From contig NZ_JAKCFI010000001.1 in the NCBI RefSeq assembly GCF_021412625.1, forward strand, positions 682,001-746,000: DNA of 64,000 nucleotides, written 5' to 3'. The notes below the pieces were generated by a model. It was not told the origin of the DNA. It made no database searches and saw only the letters and a program-made list of their open reading frames with translations. The stretch comes from Myxococcus stipitatus. Its GTDB lineage: Bacteria; Myxococcota; Myxococcia; Myxococcales; Myxococcaceae. Below are positions 48,166-55,821 of this stretch, piece by piece. Numbering within the stretch: position 1 is the first letter of the stretch; each line of letters opens with the position of its first letter. The position numbers and the translations under genes are program-made.

Positions 48166-48216
48166 GGGAAAACAAACCCGGGTGCCCCGGGGACGAGGGT
48201 CCCCCGGACACCCGGG
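48166..48216 (-). terminator. Strong terminator after the phosphate-themed cluster
   Basis: Two 18-nt arms (48177-48194 and 48199-48216) pair with only two mismatches around a 4-nt loop. Read on the minus strand the hairpin is followed by TTTGTTTTCCCC (48176-48165). It lies 32 nt after the stop of the phosphatase gene, insulating the cluster from the RsmB-like gene. Confidence 0.8.
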
Positions 48217-48247
48217 CGGGTTTCGACGGGATGGGATTGCGGGGCGC

Positions 48248-49915
48248 TCAGGCCCGAGGGGCCTGGCGACGGCGGCGCCACAGCCCCGCCAGCAGGAAGC
48301 CCGCGGAGGGGAGCATCGCCGTGGCGGGGGCGGCCGCGCAGCCCCCACCGCCACCGCCGTCGTCATTCGAGCCGACGGCGCCGGGCGGGGTGGGCCCCGG
48401 CTGCTCTTCGGGCTCGCCCGGGGTGGGCGGGGTGGTGGTGGGCGGGGTGGTGGTGGGGGGCGTGACGGTCCCCGCGTCGTCGCCGGAGGACGGGGCCTGG
48501 CTGACCGTCACGACCGCGGTGGCCGTCCGGGTGACGGAGCCGAAGACGGCGGTCGCCGTGACCGTGTACTGGCCGGCCTTCGTGTAGACGTGCTCCGTGG
48601 TGGCGCCCTCGGCCGAACCGCCGTCACCGAAGTCCCACTTCACCGGCACCTCCTGGGAGGTGGTGGCGCGGAAGAGGGCCGTGTGGGGCGCCACGCCGCG
48701 CTCGCCCTCCACCGTGATGGACAGCGCGTCCGCCGGAGGAGGCTGCTCCACGGGGGGCAGGTCCTTGCGCAGCGTGAAGCTGTCCAGGACGGTGTTGGCC
48801 GTCGTCAGCAGCTTCGCGGTGAGCACGCCCTCCACGACCTCCACGTCCAGGAAGCCGTGGGCGGTGTTGTCGCGGATGACGCTCCAGTTCGGCCGGCTCG
48901 TGGAGAAGGCGCGCAGCGCGGCGCCGCCGCCGCCCACCACGAGGTAGGGGATGCCGCCCGAGGTCGCGATGGCGTCGCCCTTCATCGGCTTGCTGCGCTC
49001 GTAGTTGTGGTCGTGCCCGGTCAGCACCAGGTCCACGCCGTACTTCTCGAAGAGGGGGCCGAACTGCTTGCGCATCGTCAACTGCGAGCCGTGTTCGCCG
49101 GACGAGAAGGGCGGGTGGTGGAAGAAGACGATCTTCCACGGCTGCTGGGTGCCGGCCAGGTCCGTCTCCAGCCACGCCTTCTGCGCGGCCAGCGAGCAGC
49201 GGTCCGACGACGCCATGCCGATGGCGCAGTTCGAGTCGAGCGACACGAAGTGCACGTGGCCCCAGTCGAAGGAGTAGTAGCGCTCCGAGCCCGCCGGGTT
49301 GTTGGTGGGCATGAAGAGGTTGTCCAGGTACGGCTGCCCCTGGTTCGTCACGTATTCGTGGTTGCCGGGCGAGGCGAACAGCGGGACCTGCGACAACAGG
49401 TCCGCCATGGGCGCGAACAGGTGGTCCTGGAAGTCCGCCTCGGTGCCGTCCGGGTAGGCGTTGTCGCCCAGCGCGACGAACAGCTCCGGCTTGCGGGCGA
49501 CCATGGCCGCGGCCACCCGCTTCTGGTCGGAGCCTCCCGTGCCGAAGTCACCCACCGCCGCGAAGTGCACGTTGCGGGTGCCCGGGACGGGCGCCGTCCG
49601 GAACGTCTTGGCCGACGTCTTCACTCCGCACGCGCTGACGACGTAGGTGTATTCGGTTCCGGGCTTCAGCCCGGTGATGACCACCGCGTGGTTGCGCCCC
49701 GTGTTCTCGGAGCGAGCGACCTGGCTGGTGGACCCTTGTCCGTAGAGCACCTCGGGCGTGCAACTGGACGCCAACCGGAATGCCACCAGGGCCGTGTCGG
49801 GGCCTACTTTCTGGAGGTAGGGGTCCCGGGCGAGAACGCCCGCGGACGCCACGCCCGCCAGCAACGTCACCCCCAGGGCCAGGGGCAGTGGGTTGAAGCG
49901 TGTCTTTCGGTGCAT
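48248..49915 (-). CDS. Secreted purple-acid-phosphatase-like metallophosphoesterase with PKD and MYXO-CTERM-type tail
   Basis: A 555-residue exported enzyme. Signal peptide 1-25, a purple-acid-phosphatase N-terminal FN3-like domain (about 30-110, LKPGTEYTYVV), then the metallophosphatase with all five metal motifs: AVGDFGTG, ALGDNAYPDG, SPGNHEY, FFHHPPFSSGEH and LTGHDHNYER. A PKD domain follows (about 410-480, WDFGDGGSAEGATTEHVYTKAG), a Thr/Pro linker and a Gly-rich Cys-TM-RRRR tail of the MYXO-CTERM type. It should hydrolyse extracellular phosphate esters. AGGAGG lies close before the ATG. It follows the porin-VTC-kinase operon by 128 nt in the same direction, so it is co-transcribed or has its own promoter. 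Confidence 0.94.
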   Translation of the reverse strand: MHRKTRFNPLPLALGVTLLAGVASAGVLARDPYLQKVGPDTALVAFRLASSCTPEVLYGQGSTSQVARSENTGRNHAVVITGLKPGTEYTYVVSACGVKTSAKTFRTAPVPGTRNVHFAAVGDFGTGGSDQKRVAAAMVARKPELFVALGDNAYPDGTEADFQDHLFAPMADLLSQVPLFASPGNHEYVTNQGQPYLDNLFMPTNNPAGSERYYSFDWGHVHFVSLDSNCAIGMASSDRCSLAAQKAWLETDLAGTQQPWKIVFFHHPPFSSGEHGSQLTMRKQFGPLFEKYGVDLVLTGHDHNYERSKPMKGDAIATSGGIPYLVVGGGGAALRAFSTSRPNWSVIRDNTAHGFLDVEVVEGVLTAKLLTTANTVLDSFTLRKDLPPVEQPPPADALSITVEGERGVAPHTALFRATTSQEVPVKWDFGDGGSAEGATTEHVYTKAGQYTVTATAVFGSVTRTATAVVTVSQAPSSGDDAGTVTPPTTTPPTTTPPTPGEPEEQPGPTPPGAVGSNDDGGGGGGCAAAPATAMLPSAGFLLAGLWRRRRQAPRA

Positions 49916-50043
49916 GCAGCCTCCTCCCGAGTCATTTCGGGATGGAGGCCCAACGGTTCACTCCTCAACCTTCATCCATGCGGGCTGCGCCGAGCGGGCG
50001 GGGGGGCGGTTGGTCGAGCTCACCCCGTCCCGCCGCGCGGGCG

Positions 50044-50817
50044 TCACTTCTTGATGTCGTAGCGCACGAGCTCCTCGGTGCGCTCGCCCTCCTCGCGCAC
50101 CTTGCCCACGCCGGGCACCAGCCAGTACGTGCGCTCCTTGCCGTCCTTCACCTCGCCCGCGTCGTTGAGCTTGTCGCGGCGGATCTTGACGGCGTTGGTG
50201 AAGGTGCCGGCCTTGGTGTTCACGGTGACGTTCATCTCCAGGACGTGCCACGTGTACGTCGGGTCCGAGTCCTCCTGGGAGCCGTCGCCCAGCACGGTCA
50301 TCTCCTGCACCGCGCTCTGGTAGTTCCACGGCAGGGCCGTGGGCGCGCGCGCCAGCGACTTCACGGTGGCCGGCGACCAGGTCGTCGTGCGCACCAGCAT
50401 GCCGTCGCGGTGGTCCTCCTCCCGCAGGCGCACCACGAGGCCGTTGGGCAGCTCCGTCTGGTAGGAGTACTCCTCGTAGAGCACGCCGGTGGCCACGCGG
50501 TCCTGGCGGCTGTGCACCAGCCGGGCCCGGGTGCCCGGCATGCCCGGCACCTCGCGCTCGTCCACCACCGTCACCTCCTTCTGGAACGTCCCGTGGACGG
50601 GGTCCTGGATGTCGTAGACCCAGACGGAGCCGACCGTCAGGGGCCACAGCGAGTCCGTCGAGGCGTTCGGGTCGTCCGGCCCCGTGTCCGGCAGCCCCAC
50701 GTTCCCGTCCGGAGGGGTGCCCGTCCCCGGCCGGTCCGCGTCCGGGAGACTGCCGCCGCCGCCACACCCCACCAGCATCCACCCGGCCGCGAGCGCGGCC
50801 ACCCATCTGCGCGTCAT
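50044..50817 (-). CDS. Putative lipoprotein in the phosphate-themed cluster
   Basis: A 257-residue protein with a lipobox (MLVGC, Cys at about 18), a Gly/Pro/Asp-rich linker and a beta-rich mature domain. It begins with the pattern LWPLTVGSVWVYDIQDP and ends TYWLVPGVGKVREEGERTEEL. The start (WPL..G..W.Y) and end (YW..PGVGKV.E) recur in uncharacterised bacterial lipoproteins. The ATG at 50817 overlaps the stop of the DUF4956 gene (ATGA), so it is translationally coupled to that membrane protein and may work with it at the envelope. Function unknown. Confidence 0.85.
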   Translation of the reverse strand: MTRRWVAALAAGWMLVGCGGGGSLPDADRPGTGTPPDGNVGLPDTGPDDPNASTDSLWPLTVGSVWVYDIQDPVHGTFQKEVTVVDEREVPGMPGTRARLVHSRQDRVATGVLYEEYSYQTELPNGLVVRLREEDHRDGMLVRTTTWSPATVKSLARAPTALPWNYQSAVQEMTVLGDGSQEDSDPTYTWHVLEMNVTVNTKAGTFTNAVKIRRDKLNDAGEVKDGKERTYWLVPGVGKVREEGERTEELVRYDIKK

Positions 50818-51518
50818 GTCAGCTCCTCCCGAGTCCCCTTGGGGCTCACCGCCGTCCACCGCAGCCCCCGCAGGGGCGTGCCCTCCGCCCGACCCAGCGC
50901 CGCCGTGAGCGAGCCGGGCACCGGTTCCTCCACTTCCAGCTCCAGCCGCCGCCCGTCGAAGTCGAGCGCGCAGCTCTTCACCAGCACGTTGCGCTCCCCC
51001 AGGGCGGTGCGCAGCGTCTGCTCCGCGCCCACCAGGTCATCCGCCTGCGCGGAGATCAATAGCCGCTGCCGGGGCGCGGGCGCCGCCTCCGGGTTGAACA
51101 GGTCGAGCACGAACAGCAGCGCGGCCACGAACAGCGTGCCCACCGCCGCGAGCCCCAGGCTGCCGTGGCCGCACGCCATGCCCAGGCCAATCATCAGGAA
51201 GAGGATGGCCGCGTCGCGTGGGTCCTTCAGGCCGGAGCGGAAGCGCACGAAGCCGCCCAGCCCCACCAGCCCGAACGCCTTGGCCACGCTGTCTCCGATG
51301 ACGGCCGTGATGACCGCCGCCGCGGCGCACAGCAGCACCTGGGCCTGGATCATGTCCGACTTGGGCAGCGCCCGGCGCATGACGAACCGCCATGGGCGCA
51401 GCGACAACACGGCGCCGATGAGCGCCGCCGCGAGCATCCGCGGCAGCATCACGGTGATGGACAGCGTGCCCAGCTCCGCCCGGGCGCTCTCCAGCAGTCC
51501 TGGAAACGAGGTGTCCAT
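50814..51518 (-). CDS. DUF4956 membrane protein
   Basis: A 234-residue protein with about four transmembrane helices (about 25-150) and a soluble C-terminal domain (about 155-234) resembling a small ACT-like or ferredoxin-like fold. The conserved loop GLGGFVRFRSGLKDPRDAA followed by FLMIGLGMACGHG is the hallmark of DUF4956. As I recall, these proteins are often encoded next to VTC-domain polyphosphate polymerases, as here. The function is unknown; a role in membrane localisation or transport linked to polyphosphate has been suggested by context only. It lies 12 nt after the kinase-repeat gene. Confidence 0.92.
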   Translation of the reverse strand: MDTSFPGLLESARAELGTLSITVMLPRMLAAALIGAVLSLRPWRFVMRRALPKSDMIQAQVLLCAAAAVITAVIGDSVAKAFGLVGLGGFVRFRSGLKDPRDAAILFLMIGLGMACGHGSLGLAAVGTLFVAALLFVLDLFNPEAAPAPRQRLLISAQADDLVGAEQTLRTALGERNVLVKSCALDFDGRRLELEVEEPVPGSLTAALGRAEGTPLRGLRWTAVSPKGTREELT

Positions 51519-51530
51519 GGCGGGTGGCTC

Positions 51531-53243
51531 CTAGCGCTCCACCTGCGGCACCGTGGTCTCTCCCGTGGCGCGGGAGGCGCGGGCGGAAGGGGGATTCGAC
51601 GCGAGCGCCCGCGCCGTGGCGATGACGCCATAGGCGTTGCGCAGGACGGGCAGCCGCGTCGGGTGGGCCTCCAGCACGCGCGTGAGGAGCGCGCGCGCCT
51701 CGGGAATGAGGCTCAGCCCTCGCAGGGAGGAGAGCGCCGTGGCGGGCCACCGGCTGGCGTACGCCACGCGCAGCCGCCAGGCGCGCGGGTGGTCCAGCCC
51801 GTCCACCGAATCGAGTGCCTCCTTGGTGAGGGGCGCGCCCCGCTCGCGCAGCGCCCAGGCGTCCTCGGTGACGAGGCCGGTCAGCGAGCGCAGCACGAGC
51901 TTGCGCGCCTTGTCCTCCAGCGCCTCGCGCAGTCCGCGCGCCACGGGCGTGTCGAGCCCCGTCGTGCTGCGCAGCACCGCGAGCCGGTCATGGGGCAGGA
52001 GCACCTCGCGCAGGGCGTCCGCGCGCGGGGAGGCGAGCCCTCCCAGGCTGCGCGCCACCGCCGCGTGCAGGCCGCGCTGCATGCCCGCCTCGCGCAGGAG
52101 CCAGGCCTCGTCGCTGTCGACGCCGCCCAGGCCCGCGAGCGTTTCGGCCAGCTTCCCGTCCTTCACGCCGCGCTCGCGCAGGGTCCAGGCCTGGGGCGTG
52201 TCGTCTCCGCGCAGGCCCACGAGCACCTCCGCGGACGCCTGCGCGTACAGCCGCTCGCGCATCATCGCCGCCCGCGGGCCGCCGATGTTCCCCAGCCCCA
52301 GGATGACCTGGGCGGGCACCACCGGCGCGAGCACGTCGCGCAGCGTCCACGCCGCCTCGTCCTCCAGGCCCGCGAGGCCCCGCGCCACGAGGGCGGGGTA
52401 GAGCTCGACCAGGCCGAGCCTGCGCTGGTGCGCGGCGAGCCCGGGCAGCCCGCTCAGCATCCACGCCGCCAGGGCCGGCTCCCGGGCCTCCACGGCGCCG
52501 AGCGCGTCGAGGAAGCGTCGCTCCACGTCCTCCACGCAGATGGGGCCGGGAGGCATCCCCGTCCCCATGGGGGTGATGCGCTGCACGGGCGTGTCGCGCC
52601 CCTCCAGTCGCGCCACCACGGCGTCCACCAGCCGCTGCTCGAGCACCCGCAGGGGCACGTCGTTGTTCTCCAGGATGATCCACCGACGCGGGTCCTCTTG
52701 CGCCAGCTTCAAGAAGGCCTGTCGCACGCGGACCGCCAGCCCCGCGCCCGCCAGCCCCTTGCGGCTGTCGCCGTCCGTCGCGCGCGCGCCCTGGGACTTG
52801 CCCAGGCGCTTGCGCCAGCGCGCCAGGTCCGGGTCCACGTCGACCAGGATGACCAGGTCCGGCCACAGCCCCTGCGAGGCGAGCTCGACGGCGGGCCGCA
52901 GCTCGTCCATGGGCAGGCCGCGCCCGCCTCCACTCAGCGCGAGCTGCGAGTACAGGTAGCGGTCGGTGATGCACACCTCCCCGCGCCCGAGCGCGGGGGC
53001 CACCACCTCTTCCAATTGCTGGGCGTCTCGCGCCAGGTTGAGGAAGAACTCGGCGCGCGGCGACATCTCCAGCAGCCTCGCGTCGCGCGTCAGCTCCCGC
53101 ACGCGTCGGGCCGTGGGCGACTGCAGCTCGCCTCCCTCCCGCGCGTGCGCCACGCGATAGCCGAGCTTCTTCAACCTCCCCGCCAGCAGGTTTGAGAGCG
53201 TCGTCTTGCCGCTGCCGTCAATCCCCTCGAAGTCGATGAACAC
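51531..53243 (-). CDS. Thymidylate-kinase-like domain fused to a 27-residue helical repeat domain
   Basis: A 570-residue fusion. Residues 1-215 are a TMPK-like P-loop kinase: FIDFEGIDGSGKTTLSNLL (Walker A), REGGE, DRYLYSQLALSGGGRGL (DR motif) and LVILVDVDPDLARWRKRLG before a LID-type segment. Residues about 250-545 form a repeat with period 27 +/- 1: an Arg in the motif AWxLR recurs at 302, 329, 356, 384, 412, 439, 466 and 492, and each unit ends near SLxGLD. This predicts an alpha-solenoid. The GTG at 53243 gives the P-loop at the usual distance; it is 5 nt after the VTC stop. A canonical Tmk has about 210 residues. Dedicated dTMP kinase activity is possible, but operon context (VTC, DUF4956, porin) suggests another nucleotide or polyphosphate-linked role. 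Confidence 0.93.
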   Translation of the reverse strand: MFIDFEGIDGSGKTTLSNLLAGRLKKLGYRVAHAREGGELQSPTARRVRELTRDARLLEMSPRAEFFLNLARDAQQLEEVVAPALGRGEVCITDRYLYSQLALSGGGRGLPMDELRPAVELASQGLWPDLVILVDVDPDLARWRKRLGKSQGARATDGDSRKGLAGAGLAVRVRQAFLKLAQEDPRRWIILENNDVPLRVLEQRLVDAVVARLEGRDTPVQRITPMGTGMPPGPICVEDVERRFLDALGAVEAREPALAAWMLSGLPGLAAHQRRLGLVELYPALVARGLAGLEDEAAWTLRDVLAPVVPAQVILGLGNIGGPRAAMMRERLYAQASAEVLVGLRGDDTPQAWTLRERGVKDGKLAETLAGLGGVDSDEAWLLREAGMQRGLHAAVARSLGGLASPRADALREVLLPHDRLAVLRSTTGLDTPVARGLREALEDKARKLVLRSLTGLVTEDAWALRERGAPLTKEALDSVDGLDHPRAWRLRVAYASRWPATALSSLRGLSLIPEARALLTRVLEAHPTRLPVLRNAYGVIATARALASNPPSARASRATGETTVPQVER

Positions 53244-53248
53244 GGTGC

Positions 53249-53962
53249 CTATCCCCTCGCGACCCCATCCACGACGAAGGCGTGGACCTTCGCCATCCCC
53301 TCTGCGAACTTGCTGTACGACGTCGCGCCGCCCGGATTGAGCGACGCGAGCCAGTCGGGCAGCTCGAGTCCCAGATGCTTCACCTCCACCACCACGCGCC
53401 GCTCCACGGCCAACGGAGGGCCCAGCCGCTCCGCCGTCAGGGCAAGCTGTGACAGGGCCAGCTCGGGCGCAATCCGGTGGTAGCCGATGTCCCGATCCAC
53501 CGTCACCCGCCAGTCCTGTGACGCCTGGAAGATGTGGCGCTGGTACGTCACCGCCAGGACGGGCAACAGGCTCCCGCCCGTGATGAGCGGCAGGAGCCGC
53601 GCGCCGCCCCGCAGCACGCGCCCCAGGTCCGACCGGGGCACCCACACGCGGCGCTTCTGGGTCAGGCCATGGCGCTCGCGCTTCACCTCCAGCACCACGC
53701 GCTCCACGCCGCCGGACCCCAGGTCCGGCAGGTATTCCTTGGTGCGGACCTTGAGGCAGTCCTCCGGCGAGCGCAGCGCGCGCACCGCCAGCGGACAGCC
53801 CGGCCGGTCGAAGTACACGGACACGATACGCGTGGGCGAGGGCGCGTGCCCGCCCAGCTCCCGCGACAGCCGCGCGCACAGCGCCAGCGCGGCATGCTCC
53901 TCCATCACCAGCTTGAACTCACGCCGCAGCCTGGTGACTTCCCCCTCGGCGAACGACAGCAT
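53249..53962 (-). CDS. VTC-domain protein (polyphosphate polymerase type)
   Basis: A 237-residue triphosphate-tunnel protein of the VTC family; the yeast Vtc4 domain makes polyphosphate from ATP. Residues expected in the tunnel are all present: Lys17 in REFKLV, Lys71 and Arg73 in CLKVRTKEY, Glu92 and Lys94 in VLEVKRE, Arg142 in VTYQRHIF, Arg152 and Asp156 in RVTVDRD, Glu193 and Lys195 in VVVEVKH, and SYSKFAEGM at the end. No SPX domain and no membrane helix are seen, so it would be cytosolic. The ATG at 53962 is 17 nt after the porin stop. Operon partner of a DUF4956 protein, supporting a polyphosphate role. Confidence 0.92.
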   Translation of the reverse strand: MLSFAEGEVTRLRREFKLVMEEHAALALCARLSRELGGHAPSPTRIVSVYFDRPGCPLAVRALRSPEDCLKVRTKEYLPDLGSGGVERVVLEVKRERHGLTQKRRVWVPRSDLGRVLRGGARLLPLITGGSLLPVLAVTYQRHIFQASQDWRVTVDRDIGYHRIAPELALSQLALTAERLGPPLAVERRVVVEVKHLGLELPDWLASLNPGGATSYSKFAEGMAKVHAFVVDGVARG

Positions 53963-53979
53963 TCCCCGTGTCTCCACTC

Positions 53980-55311
53980 TTAGAAGCGGGTGGCGAGTTG
54001 CAGTGAGTATTCGATGCCCGGCGCCGCGTCCCCTGGCCGCAGGGCGCGCTCCACCTGGAACTGTCCCCGGAAGCGGTTGCCCAGCAGCAGGTTGAGGCCA
54101 CCCACGACGGAGTGGCCGCGCCCCTCCACGTCTCCCCGGAGCTGGAGTCCCTCCGCGCCCAACACGGGCTGGAGCGCCCACTCCGGGCCCATGGGAACCG
54201 TCCAACTCGCCAGCATCAGCTGCGCGGTGAACGGTCCCACCGGGAGCCGGCCCGTGACGAACTCGCCCGACACCGCGAGGGGGCCCAGCTTCAGCTCCGC
54301 GTCGGCCGCCACCGCGTGACGACGCGCGCGGTCCAACGCCTCCGCCACGTAGGTGCTCACGCCCAGCGTCAGCCGCTTCTTGATGGGGGACACGCTCACG
54401 CGTCCGGCGAGGTCCTCCTTCGTCCTCACGCCCAGCTCGTCCTTGGCGCCCTGGAAGACGCCCGCGGAGACGCGCACGTCCCAGAGGCTCTTGAGGCGCA
54501 CCTCGCCCATGAGGCCGAGCCGCCGGCCTCCCAGCTCGTAGGTGTCCGTCAGGTAGTCATCCACGAGTCCACGGCCCTGGATGGGCAGGCTCCACGAGCC
54601 CTCCAGCCGACGCTGGAGGAAGGGGGCCTTGAACTGTCCTCCGTAGAGGCGGAAGCGCTTCTTGTCGTCCGCCAACCGTACGAACGCGTCCTTGAGCAGT
54701 GACGTATCCGCCAGGTCCGCGCTCACCTCGGCCTCGAGGTTGGGCAGCGACGTGCCCACGCCCACGCGCGCCGAGGGGATGCTGAGCGTGCGCTGGTACT
54801 TGACGCGCTCGTCCGCGCTGGCTCGCGCGTAGACGCGCCCGAAGACGCGCACCGTCTGCACCTCCTCCGGGGGCGTGTCGTCGAGCGCGGTGGTGTCCTC
54901 GCCCAGCGAGTCCTCCTGCTGAGGGCCCGGCTTCGACTTCTTCTTCTTGCCCGGCGGTGTCGCCTCGGAGGGAGGCGGCGTGGCCGCGGGGTCGGTGATG
55001 GTGGCGCCCCTGGGCGGGGCGTCGCCAGGCCCGATTCGCGGCGGCAACGCCTGCGCGAGCGCGTCCTCCGTCAGGGACGTGGCGGCTCCGGGTTCCGCGA
55101 GCGGCTCGGAGCCCTCCGGTGGACCCTGGTTGGGATCCTCGACGCCGTCCACGACGCCTCCGGAGAGGGCGTCTTCTCCGGCCCACGCGATGACCTCCTC
55201 CGATGAAGCGCTCGAGCTGGACGACGTCGCCTGCGCGAACGCCGGTCCGCTCAACAGGACTGCGACGAGGAGGCCCCGCCTCCCCTGATCATCCAACCAC
55301 CACCCGCCCAT
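53980..55311 (-). CDS. OprO/OprP-like outer-membrane porin with long Pro-rich N-terminus
   Basis: A 443-residue exported protein. Signal peptide to about residue 26 (cut at AFAQ), then about 120 residues of Ser/Pro/Glu-rich linker with a short Lys run, then a barrel from about 150. The barrel resembles phosphate-selective porins O/P: VRVFGRVYARASADERV, LLKDAFVRLADDKKRFRLYGGQFKAPF, DTYELGGRRLGLMGEV and VRVSAGVFQGAKDE, ending SLQLATRF with a C-terminal Phe. It is probably a trimeric anion or phosphate channel. GGGGAGG lies before the ATG. First gene of the cluster, with a Pho-box-like repeat 119-148 nt upstream. Confidence 0.85.
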   Translation of the reverse strand: MGGWWLDDQGRRGLLVAVLLSGPAFAQATSSSSSASSEEVIAWAGEDALSGGVVDGVEDPNQGPPEGSEPLAEPGAATSLTEDALAQALPPRIGPGDAPPRGATITDPAATPPPSEATPPGKKKKSKPGPQQEDSLGEDTTALDDTPPEEVQTVRVFGRVYARASADERVKYQRTLSIPSARVGVGTSLPNLEAEVSADLADTSLLKDAFVRLADDKKRFRLYGGQFKAPFLQRRLEGSWSLPIQGRGLVDDYLTDTYELGGRRLGLMGEVRLKSLWDVRVSAGVFQGAKDELGVRTKEDLAGRVSVSPIKKRLTLGVSTYVAEALDRARRHAVAADAELKLGPLAVSGEFVTGRLPVGPFTAQLMLASWTVPMGPEWALQPVLGAEGLQLRGDVEGRGHSVVGGLNLLLGNRFRGQFQVERALRPGDAAPGIEYSLQLATRF

Positions 55312-55821
55312 GTCCCCGCCTCCCCGTCGCTGCCGGCAGAGCCCGCTGCAACTGTGGTGCCCGGACAGCCAACGTCGGATGGCGGACGGCGGTGGACTGG
55401 GATGACGTGAGAAGAGGCGATGGAGCTCCGTGACCAGGGCGTCACAGGTTCGTCACAGGGAACGGAAGTTCCACCTCGCGACCAGCCGGGCCTGTACGAA
55501 TGTCGTCGACGAGGTGGAAGGAGTTACCGGTCGGACGCCGGATCCGTCGGGGGGGTGGTGGGCGCCCGTGAGGCGGGAGGGGATTCGCCCCGCCGGCTCC
55601 GCGCGCCCGCTCCGAAGGAGTCGAGCGGCCACGGGGGGAGATGGCGCGCGCTCGCGCGGAGACCATTGCATCCGAGGTCGCGCTGGAGCGGAGACGTGTG
55701 CCCCGGCTCGGTGCCGCAAAAGAGGCGAGCCGCCGAGGTGCGAGGCGACGAGCTCGCGCGCGGAGGCCGGCGCATCCGAACGCGCGGCCTTGGTCGTGGA
55801 GCGCGGTGCCCCTACCCGGTG
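55312..55821. other. Regulatory intergenic region upstream of the phosphate-themed cluster
   Basis: A 510-nt non-coding stretch between the membrane-anchored protein gene (stop 55822) and the porin start. Besides the tandem repeats at 55430-55459 it holds an inverted repeat GGAAC-N4-GTTCC (55459-55472) abutting them. I find no convincing -10 hexamer between the repeats and the porin ATG. No reading frame here looks coding. Confidence 0.5.
55430..55459 (-). promoter_or_regulatory. Pho-box-like tandem repeat, 11-bp period
   Basis: On the minus strand CCTGTGAC occurs twice (55459-55452 and 55448-55441), exactly 11 bp apart, and a degenerate third copy CTGGTCAC follows in phase (55437-55430). 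PhoB boxes are direct 7-bp half-sites with an 11-bp period (E. coli CTGTCAT); CTGTGAC matches five of seven bases. The repeats lie 119-148 nt upstream of the porin start and point toward it. Sequence and context both suggest phosphate-starvation control. Confidence 0.6.

Follow-up and report, generated by a model that had tools for sequence, protein, structure and literature searches.

Two described systems come closest to the locus considered here. In yeast, the VTC complex couples cytosolic synthesis of polyphosphate to translocation through a channel lined with basic residues, and the product leaves the cytosol (PMC9911596). In streptococci, clostridia and bifidobacteria, CotH, a poly-phosphate polymerase (VTC) and DUF4956 are encoded by accessory genes of Pel loci (PMC7112168). 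We analysed a 64,000-nucleotide stretch of the Myxococcus stipitatus genome (contig NZ_JAKCFI010000001.1), referred to below as the window, in which six consecutive genes, all on the minus strand at positions 48248-55311, encode a porin, a VTC protein, a thymidylate-kinase-like domain fused to an alpha-solenoid (the kinase-solenoid), a DUF4956 membrane protein, a lipoprotein and a secreted phosphatase. Read 5' to 3' along the cluster, the coordinates give intergenic gaps of 17, 5 and 12 nucleotides, a four-nucleotide ATGA overlap and a gap of 128 nucleotides, exactly the layout described in an earlier note on this DNA. That note had also placed a strong terminator after the cluster, and folding bears this out: the hairpin has a predicted energy of -44.4 kcal/mol (z -4.4) and is followed by a T-run. 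The features are as follows.

53980..55311, minus strand: porin O/P-like outer-membrane beta-barrel with a signal peptide and a long low-complexity N-terminal segment; orthologue in nearly all related loci
53249..53962, minus strand: VTC-domain protein, a polyphosphate-polymerase-like triphosphate tunnel enzyme with intact catalytic residues
51531..53243, minus strand: kinase-solenoid, with a thymidylate-kinase-fold domain (residues 1-216) and an alpha-solenoid of ~27-residue repeats (about 237-549); GTG start
50814..51518, minus strand: DUF4956 membrane protein with transmembrane helices, an MgtC-C-terminal-like domain and an RFR..K motif
50044..50817, minus strand: lipoprotein with lipobox LVGC, weakly DUF3108-like; found again near other VTC clusters
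48248..49915, minus strand: secreted purple-acid-phosphatase-like metallophosphoesterase with a PKD domain, a MYXO-CTERM signal and intact metal-binding motifs
48168..48217, minus strand: intrinsic terminator following the phosphatase gene, from folding and the T-run

The cluster resembles the Gram-positive Pel-locus set in the adjacency of VTC and DUF4956, and CotH itself appears in sister operons of the Myxococcaceae and in many Planctomycetota loci. It differs in its core of porin and kinase-solenoid, and the window carries a phosphatase and a lipoprotein where the Pel set has CotH; the window cluster showed no Pel genes. Like yeast Vtc1/3/4 it has the VTC catalytic domain, in which the active-site residues match, next to a membrane protein in which basic residues are conserved. 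However, the SPX domain is missing, DUF4956 is a separate and unrelated family, and the bacterial cluster adds outer-membrane and secreted partners. The CotH-VTC-DUF4956 set is already published, while no description of the version with porin and kinase-solenoid was found in the open-licence literature.

Conservation of the gene cluster

Linkage was counted over 59 distinct kinase-solenoid loci with at least 4 kb of sequence on both sides, taking partners within 4 kb. VTC accompanied the kinase-solenoid at 56 of these, the porin at 54 and DUF4956 at 53; the lipoprotein (36/59), the phosphatase (30/59) and CotH (19/59) were found less often. Within the Myxococcaceae the order porin, VTC, kinase, DUF4956, lipoprotein, phosphatase is largely retained across genera, with single members missing from some loci, and the flanking genes for a serine/threonine kinase and RsmB are retained as well. 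VTC was found in 71 of 96 genomes of the family and in 94 of 195 across the phylum, and the repeat domain in 76 of the same 195, one of these hits (G162, 20 bits) being too weak to be counted. The operon is present in M. xanthus (L179).

Searched with the kinase alignment, 84,980 species genomes yielded further examples of this fusion among uncultured Myxococcota and among Planctomycetota. Among 294 sampled Planctomycetota genomes 15 carried the kinase-solenoid, and VTC adjoined it at 15 of 16 loci, often together with a porin, DUF4956 or tandem CotH lipoproteins. The distance matrices of VTC and kinase agreed closely (Mantel r 0.91, 0 of 2000 permutations). Chance adjacency was ruled out by this linkage across phyla and by the co-inheritance of VTC and kinase. 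The proposal that the gene order would be found again in relatives, and that VTC and DUF4956 are neighbours in bacteria, has held: the neighbourhood comparison shows clear retention, and the adjacency is widespread. Judged by this comparison of sequences, the six genes form a real functional unit.

Two observations were made along the way. One record, labelled 'Comamonas sp. KCTC 72670' (L167), contains the operon with a kinase identity of 74% and appears to be a misnamed Myxococcaceae genome. In two Planctomycetota loci, four tandem CotH lipoprotein genes stand beside VTC and the kinase (L203, 6505-11885; L261, 9130-14452).

Two further cluster types bear on function. Many Myxococcaceae have a second, diverged operon encoding a secreted CotH lipoprotein, VTC, a porin, a kinase-solenoid and DUF4956. 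CotH is absent from the window cluster, and four unlinked CotH genes lie elsewhere in the genome. The third type (L052 4650-10350, L053 and L055; families scanned in L052 only) combines a PPDK_N lipoprotein, VTC and DUF4956 with an HlyD-family protein and a TolC-like OEP, a predicted two-membrane export pair that replaces the porin; the lipoprotein gene precedes VTC-DUF4956 and the export pair follows.

Protein components of the cluster

The VTC protein scored 57 bits against its Pfam model (cut-off 23), and a profile built from Myxococcota VTC proteins found yeast Vtc4 at 7e-25. The earlier note had credited it with all the tunnel residues, which is essentially correct: residues R264, R361, R373, E426 and K458 of Vtc4 correspond to R73, R142, R152, E193 and K218 in the window protein, while the sixth position, R266, is Lys75, a lysine in this clade. 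The five equivalents were invariant in 33 of 33 VTC proteins from two phyla. For Vtc4, R264, R266 and E426 are residues altered in the complex (PMC9911596) and Lys-458 is named in PMC4641920. By these alignments the active site is intact, and we infer that the protein makes polyphosphate from ATP.

The DUF4956 protein was identified as such by Pfam (42 bits, cut-off 30.6), as had been claimed. Its structural model, with a pLDDT (predicted local distance difference test) of 72, consists of helices followed by a ferredoxin-like domain; the best structural match of the protein was the C-terminal domain of MgtC (7qa5), a modest one (E 3e-3). Its score to the MgtC family was weak and below cut-off, and the gene context differs. 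The membrane region holds a near-invariant RFR..K motif. By its position next to VTC and its charge, the protein may act as a polyphosphate channel.

The kinase-solenoid passed the cut-off of the dTMP kinase family TIGR00041 (97 bits against 83). Its AlphaFold model has a pLDDT of 88, and residues 1-216 matched thymidylate kinases (TMKs), with a VIA Z of 23.6 to the Thermus thermophilus enzyme (root-mean-square deviation 1.9 over 181 residues). In the Pfam scan only Thymidylate_kin and weak P-loop families were matched, and no PPK2 match was obtained. The C-terminal part forms an alpha-solenoid whose repeats recur every 27 residues, and it matched no Pfam family and no PDB sequence; matches from a structure search with the full model were all taken up by the kinase domain.

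In TMKs generally, an arginine and a stacking phenylalanine, both of the F..ADR motif, and the glutamine of AYQ contribute to thymine recognition. Like bacterial TMKs, the kinase-solenoid has the fold, the P-loop and the DR motif, the P-loop lysine and DR being invariant across 33 loci. It differs from them at the thymine site: Asp or Glu stands in place of the canonical thymine-contacting arginine in 33 of 33 kinases, the phenylalanine is Asn, Tyr or Gly, the glutamine is lost, the usual LID has given way to a conserved RKG motif, and the solenoid follows. The canonical enzymes used for comparison, the three of eight rows that were clear tmk (L072, L074 and L076), keep the thymine-binding residues; at least four of the other rows, which had been taken from the wrong strand, and L079 were left out of the comparison. 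We also observed that these Myxococcaceae dTMP kinases have the P-loop GAGTTTQ, with threonine where lysine is usual. A separate canonical tmk (165 bits) lies on another contig of the M. stipitatus genome, and the kinase-solenoid as its only tmk was thereby ruled out.

Could the kinase-solenoid be a dTMP kinase, spare or for salvage, and a member of the operon only incidentally? Its TIGR00041 score and its TMK-like fold are what such an enzyme would show, but the thymine-site residues are gone in every member compared, a canonical tmk exists elsewhere and linkage to VTC is maintained across phyla. We regard this as very improbable. Because the thymine-binding residues are lost and a canonical tmk is present elsewhere, the protein has the TMK fold but is probably not an ordinary dTMP kinase; the fold and repeat domain noted earlier stand, but an ordinary TMK activity is unlikely.

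The remaining three proteins would act at or beyond the outer membrane. The window porin had no Pfam match, including to PF07396 (phosphate-selective porin O/P), and its profile matched no real porin in a sequence search of solved structures. PF07396 was matched by 4 of 11 porin homologues from sister clusters (best 1.4e-7), so that the earlier OprO/OprP-like assignment depends on these homologues and not on the window protein itself. The lipoprotein has the predicted lipobox LVGC and falls below the cut-off of DUF3108_like. The phosphatase matched Metallophos (64.5 bits, cut-off 21.5), a PKD domain and the MYXO-CTERM sorting signal (17.9 against 15.85), and keeps the metal-ligand motifs GD, GDxxY, GNHE, H and GHxH, in agreement with its description as an exported purple-acid-phosphatase-like enzyme.

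The upstream region and a proposed role in phosphate scavenging

Three elements were found upstream of the porin gene.

55347..55362, minus strand: sigma-54-type -24/-12 promoter GGGCACCACAGTTGCA, conserved in relatives
55428..55458, minus strand: 11-nucleotide-phased repeats CTGTGACGAAC CTGTGACGCCC TGGTCACG, loosely conserved
55459..55472, minus strand: inverted repeat GGAACTTCCGTTCC, a candidate enhancer-binding-protein site about 109 nucleotides upstream of the -24 element

The sigma-54 element, GGGCACC-N3-GTTGCA, lies between the 11-nucleotide repeat and the porin gene. A single match is not significant alone, with 1.35 expected per window, and the promoter is called because of its conservation: of 25 regions upstream of the orthologues, 21 (16 strict) have a GG-N10-GC element at a constant position, and none has it on the opposite strand. 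Upstream of the sister CotH operons it was found in 0 of 13. The inverted repeat, GGAAC-N4-GTTCC, is retained in the window and the seven closest relatives compared.

The phased repeats had been called Pho-box-like. An 11-nucleotide direct repeat is indeed present, as PhoB boxes would have it, but the name is unsupported: the repeat is unique in the genome at 0 mismatches, its degenerate form occurs at 26 sites against 18 for a reversed-pattern control, and nothing comparable was found near the only strong pstS match in the genome. The Pho-box reading was set aside on these grounds; a conserved sigma-54 promoter is found instead.

These results weigh on the functional model of the earlier note, a complete route from phosphate ester to stored polyphosphate in which the phosphatase frees phosphate, the porin imports it and VTC stores it, under PhoB-type control. 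The direct repeat would suit that model, as would an exported phosphatase sharing a cluster with a porin related to phosphate-selective porins. However, the repeat is not enriched genome-wide, the cluster has no inner-membrane phosphate transporter, PPK1 (796 bits), an enzyme for storage, and pstS are encoded separately, and the yeast VTC complex exports its product from the cytosol. The sister operon, moreover, retains VTC, porin, kinase and DUF4956 while CotH replaces the phosphatase. We consider scavenging for storage unlikely, and the complete route is not borne out. The PPK1 gene also rules out VTC as the sole polyphosphate synthase.

Two further observations concern this region. Window positions 55528-55485, just upstream of the inverted repeat, are non-coding and strongly conserved (GTAACTCCTTCC ... 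CATTCGTACAGG). The adjoining gene P0007 (55822-55525, upstream of the porin) stops earlier than in its relatives. Their ending lies in a different reading frame of the window, and a frameshift in the C-terminal part of P0007 is likely.

Polyphosphate synthesis with export as a possible function

Tentatively, we favour a reading of the cluster as an envelope-spanning phosphate-polymer unit for the synthesis and export of polyphosphate, which seems likelier than uptake into storage. The whole unit would be transcribed from the sigma-54 promoter. VTC would make polyphosphate from ATP on the cytosolic side of the inner membrane, and DUF4956, as its membrane partner, would pass the growing chain into the periplasm, like the Vtc transmembrane domains in yeast. 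The porin may provide passage of phosphate or polyphosphate across the outer membrane, where the surface lipoprotein and the phosphatase, or CotH-family lipoproteins in the sister clusters, would bind, trim or use the polymer. The kinase-solenoid may work with VTC in the cytosol, phosphorylating a substrate that is not dTMP, in the simplest case a nucleotide, and so feeding or controlling VTC; the solenoid would act as a scaffold for docking. Export is favoured over uptake because of the topology of yeast VTC, the constant presence of envelope and secreted partners, and the cluster type with the HlyD/TolC-like pair.

Several points weigh against synthesis with export. The window porin falls short of the Pfam O/P model. 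The DUF4956 model is only moderate and its MgtC C-terminal fold implies no channel; in some loci (for example L197 and L199) DUF4956 was not found near the kinase. No activity or described function of a bacterial VTC protein was found in the open-licence literature searched. Phosphatases and cyclases, too, are found among triphosphate-tunnel proteins.

The main rival, which we think distinctly less probable than export yet more so than scavenging, is that the VTC-like enzyme and DUF4956 make or transfer phosphate for a surface glycan or protein, not free polyphosphate, and that CotH or the phosphatase adds or removes it. In its favour, Gram-positive Pel exopolysaccharide loci have CotH, VTC and DUF4956 among their accessory genes (PMC7112168), and secreted CotH lipoproteins lie beside VTC, in tandem in some Planctomycetota. 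Against it, the VTC active-site residues match those of the polyphosphate polymerase Vtc4, and the cluster showed no genes for glycan synthesis. A bolder proposal, which we hold to be improbable, is that VTC and DUF4956 export polyphosphate as an energy-rich phosphoryl donor, with which CotH or PPDK_N-type lipoproteins would phosphorylate extracellular targets where ATP is scarce; the kinase-solenoid would then be a dedicated new phosphotransferase.

For the VTC-domain proteins of bacteria, this compact operon names likely partners: a porin, DUF4956, the kinase-solenoid and a secreted CotH or phosphatase. It is conserved in two phyla and present in culturable Myxococcus, and it makes the function of these proteins directly testable. 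The kinase would be a new enzyme of the TMK fold. If polyphosphate synthesis with export is true, bacteria and yeast would share coupled synthesis and translocation of polyphosphate, with the bacteria loading the cell envelope instead of a vacuole.

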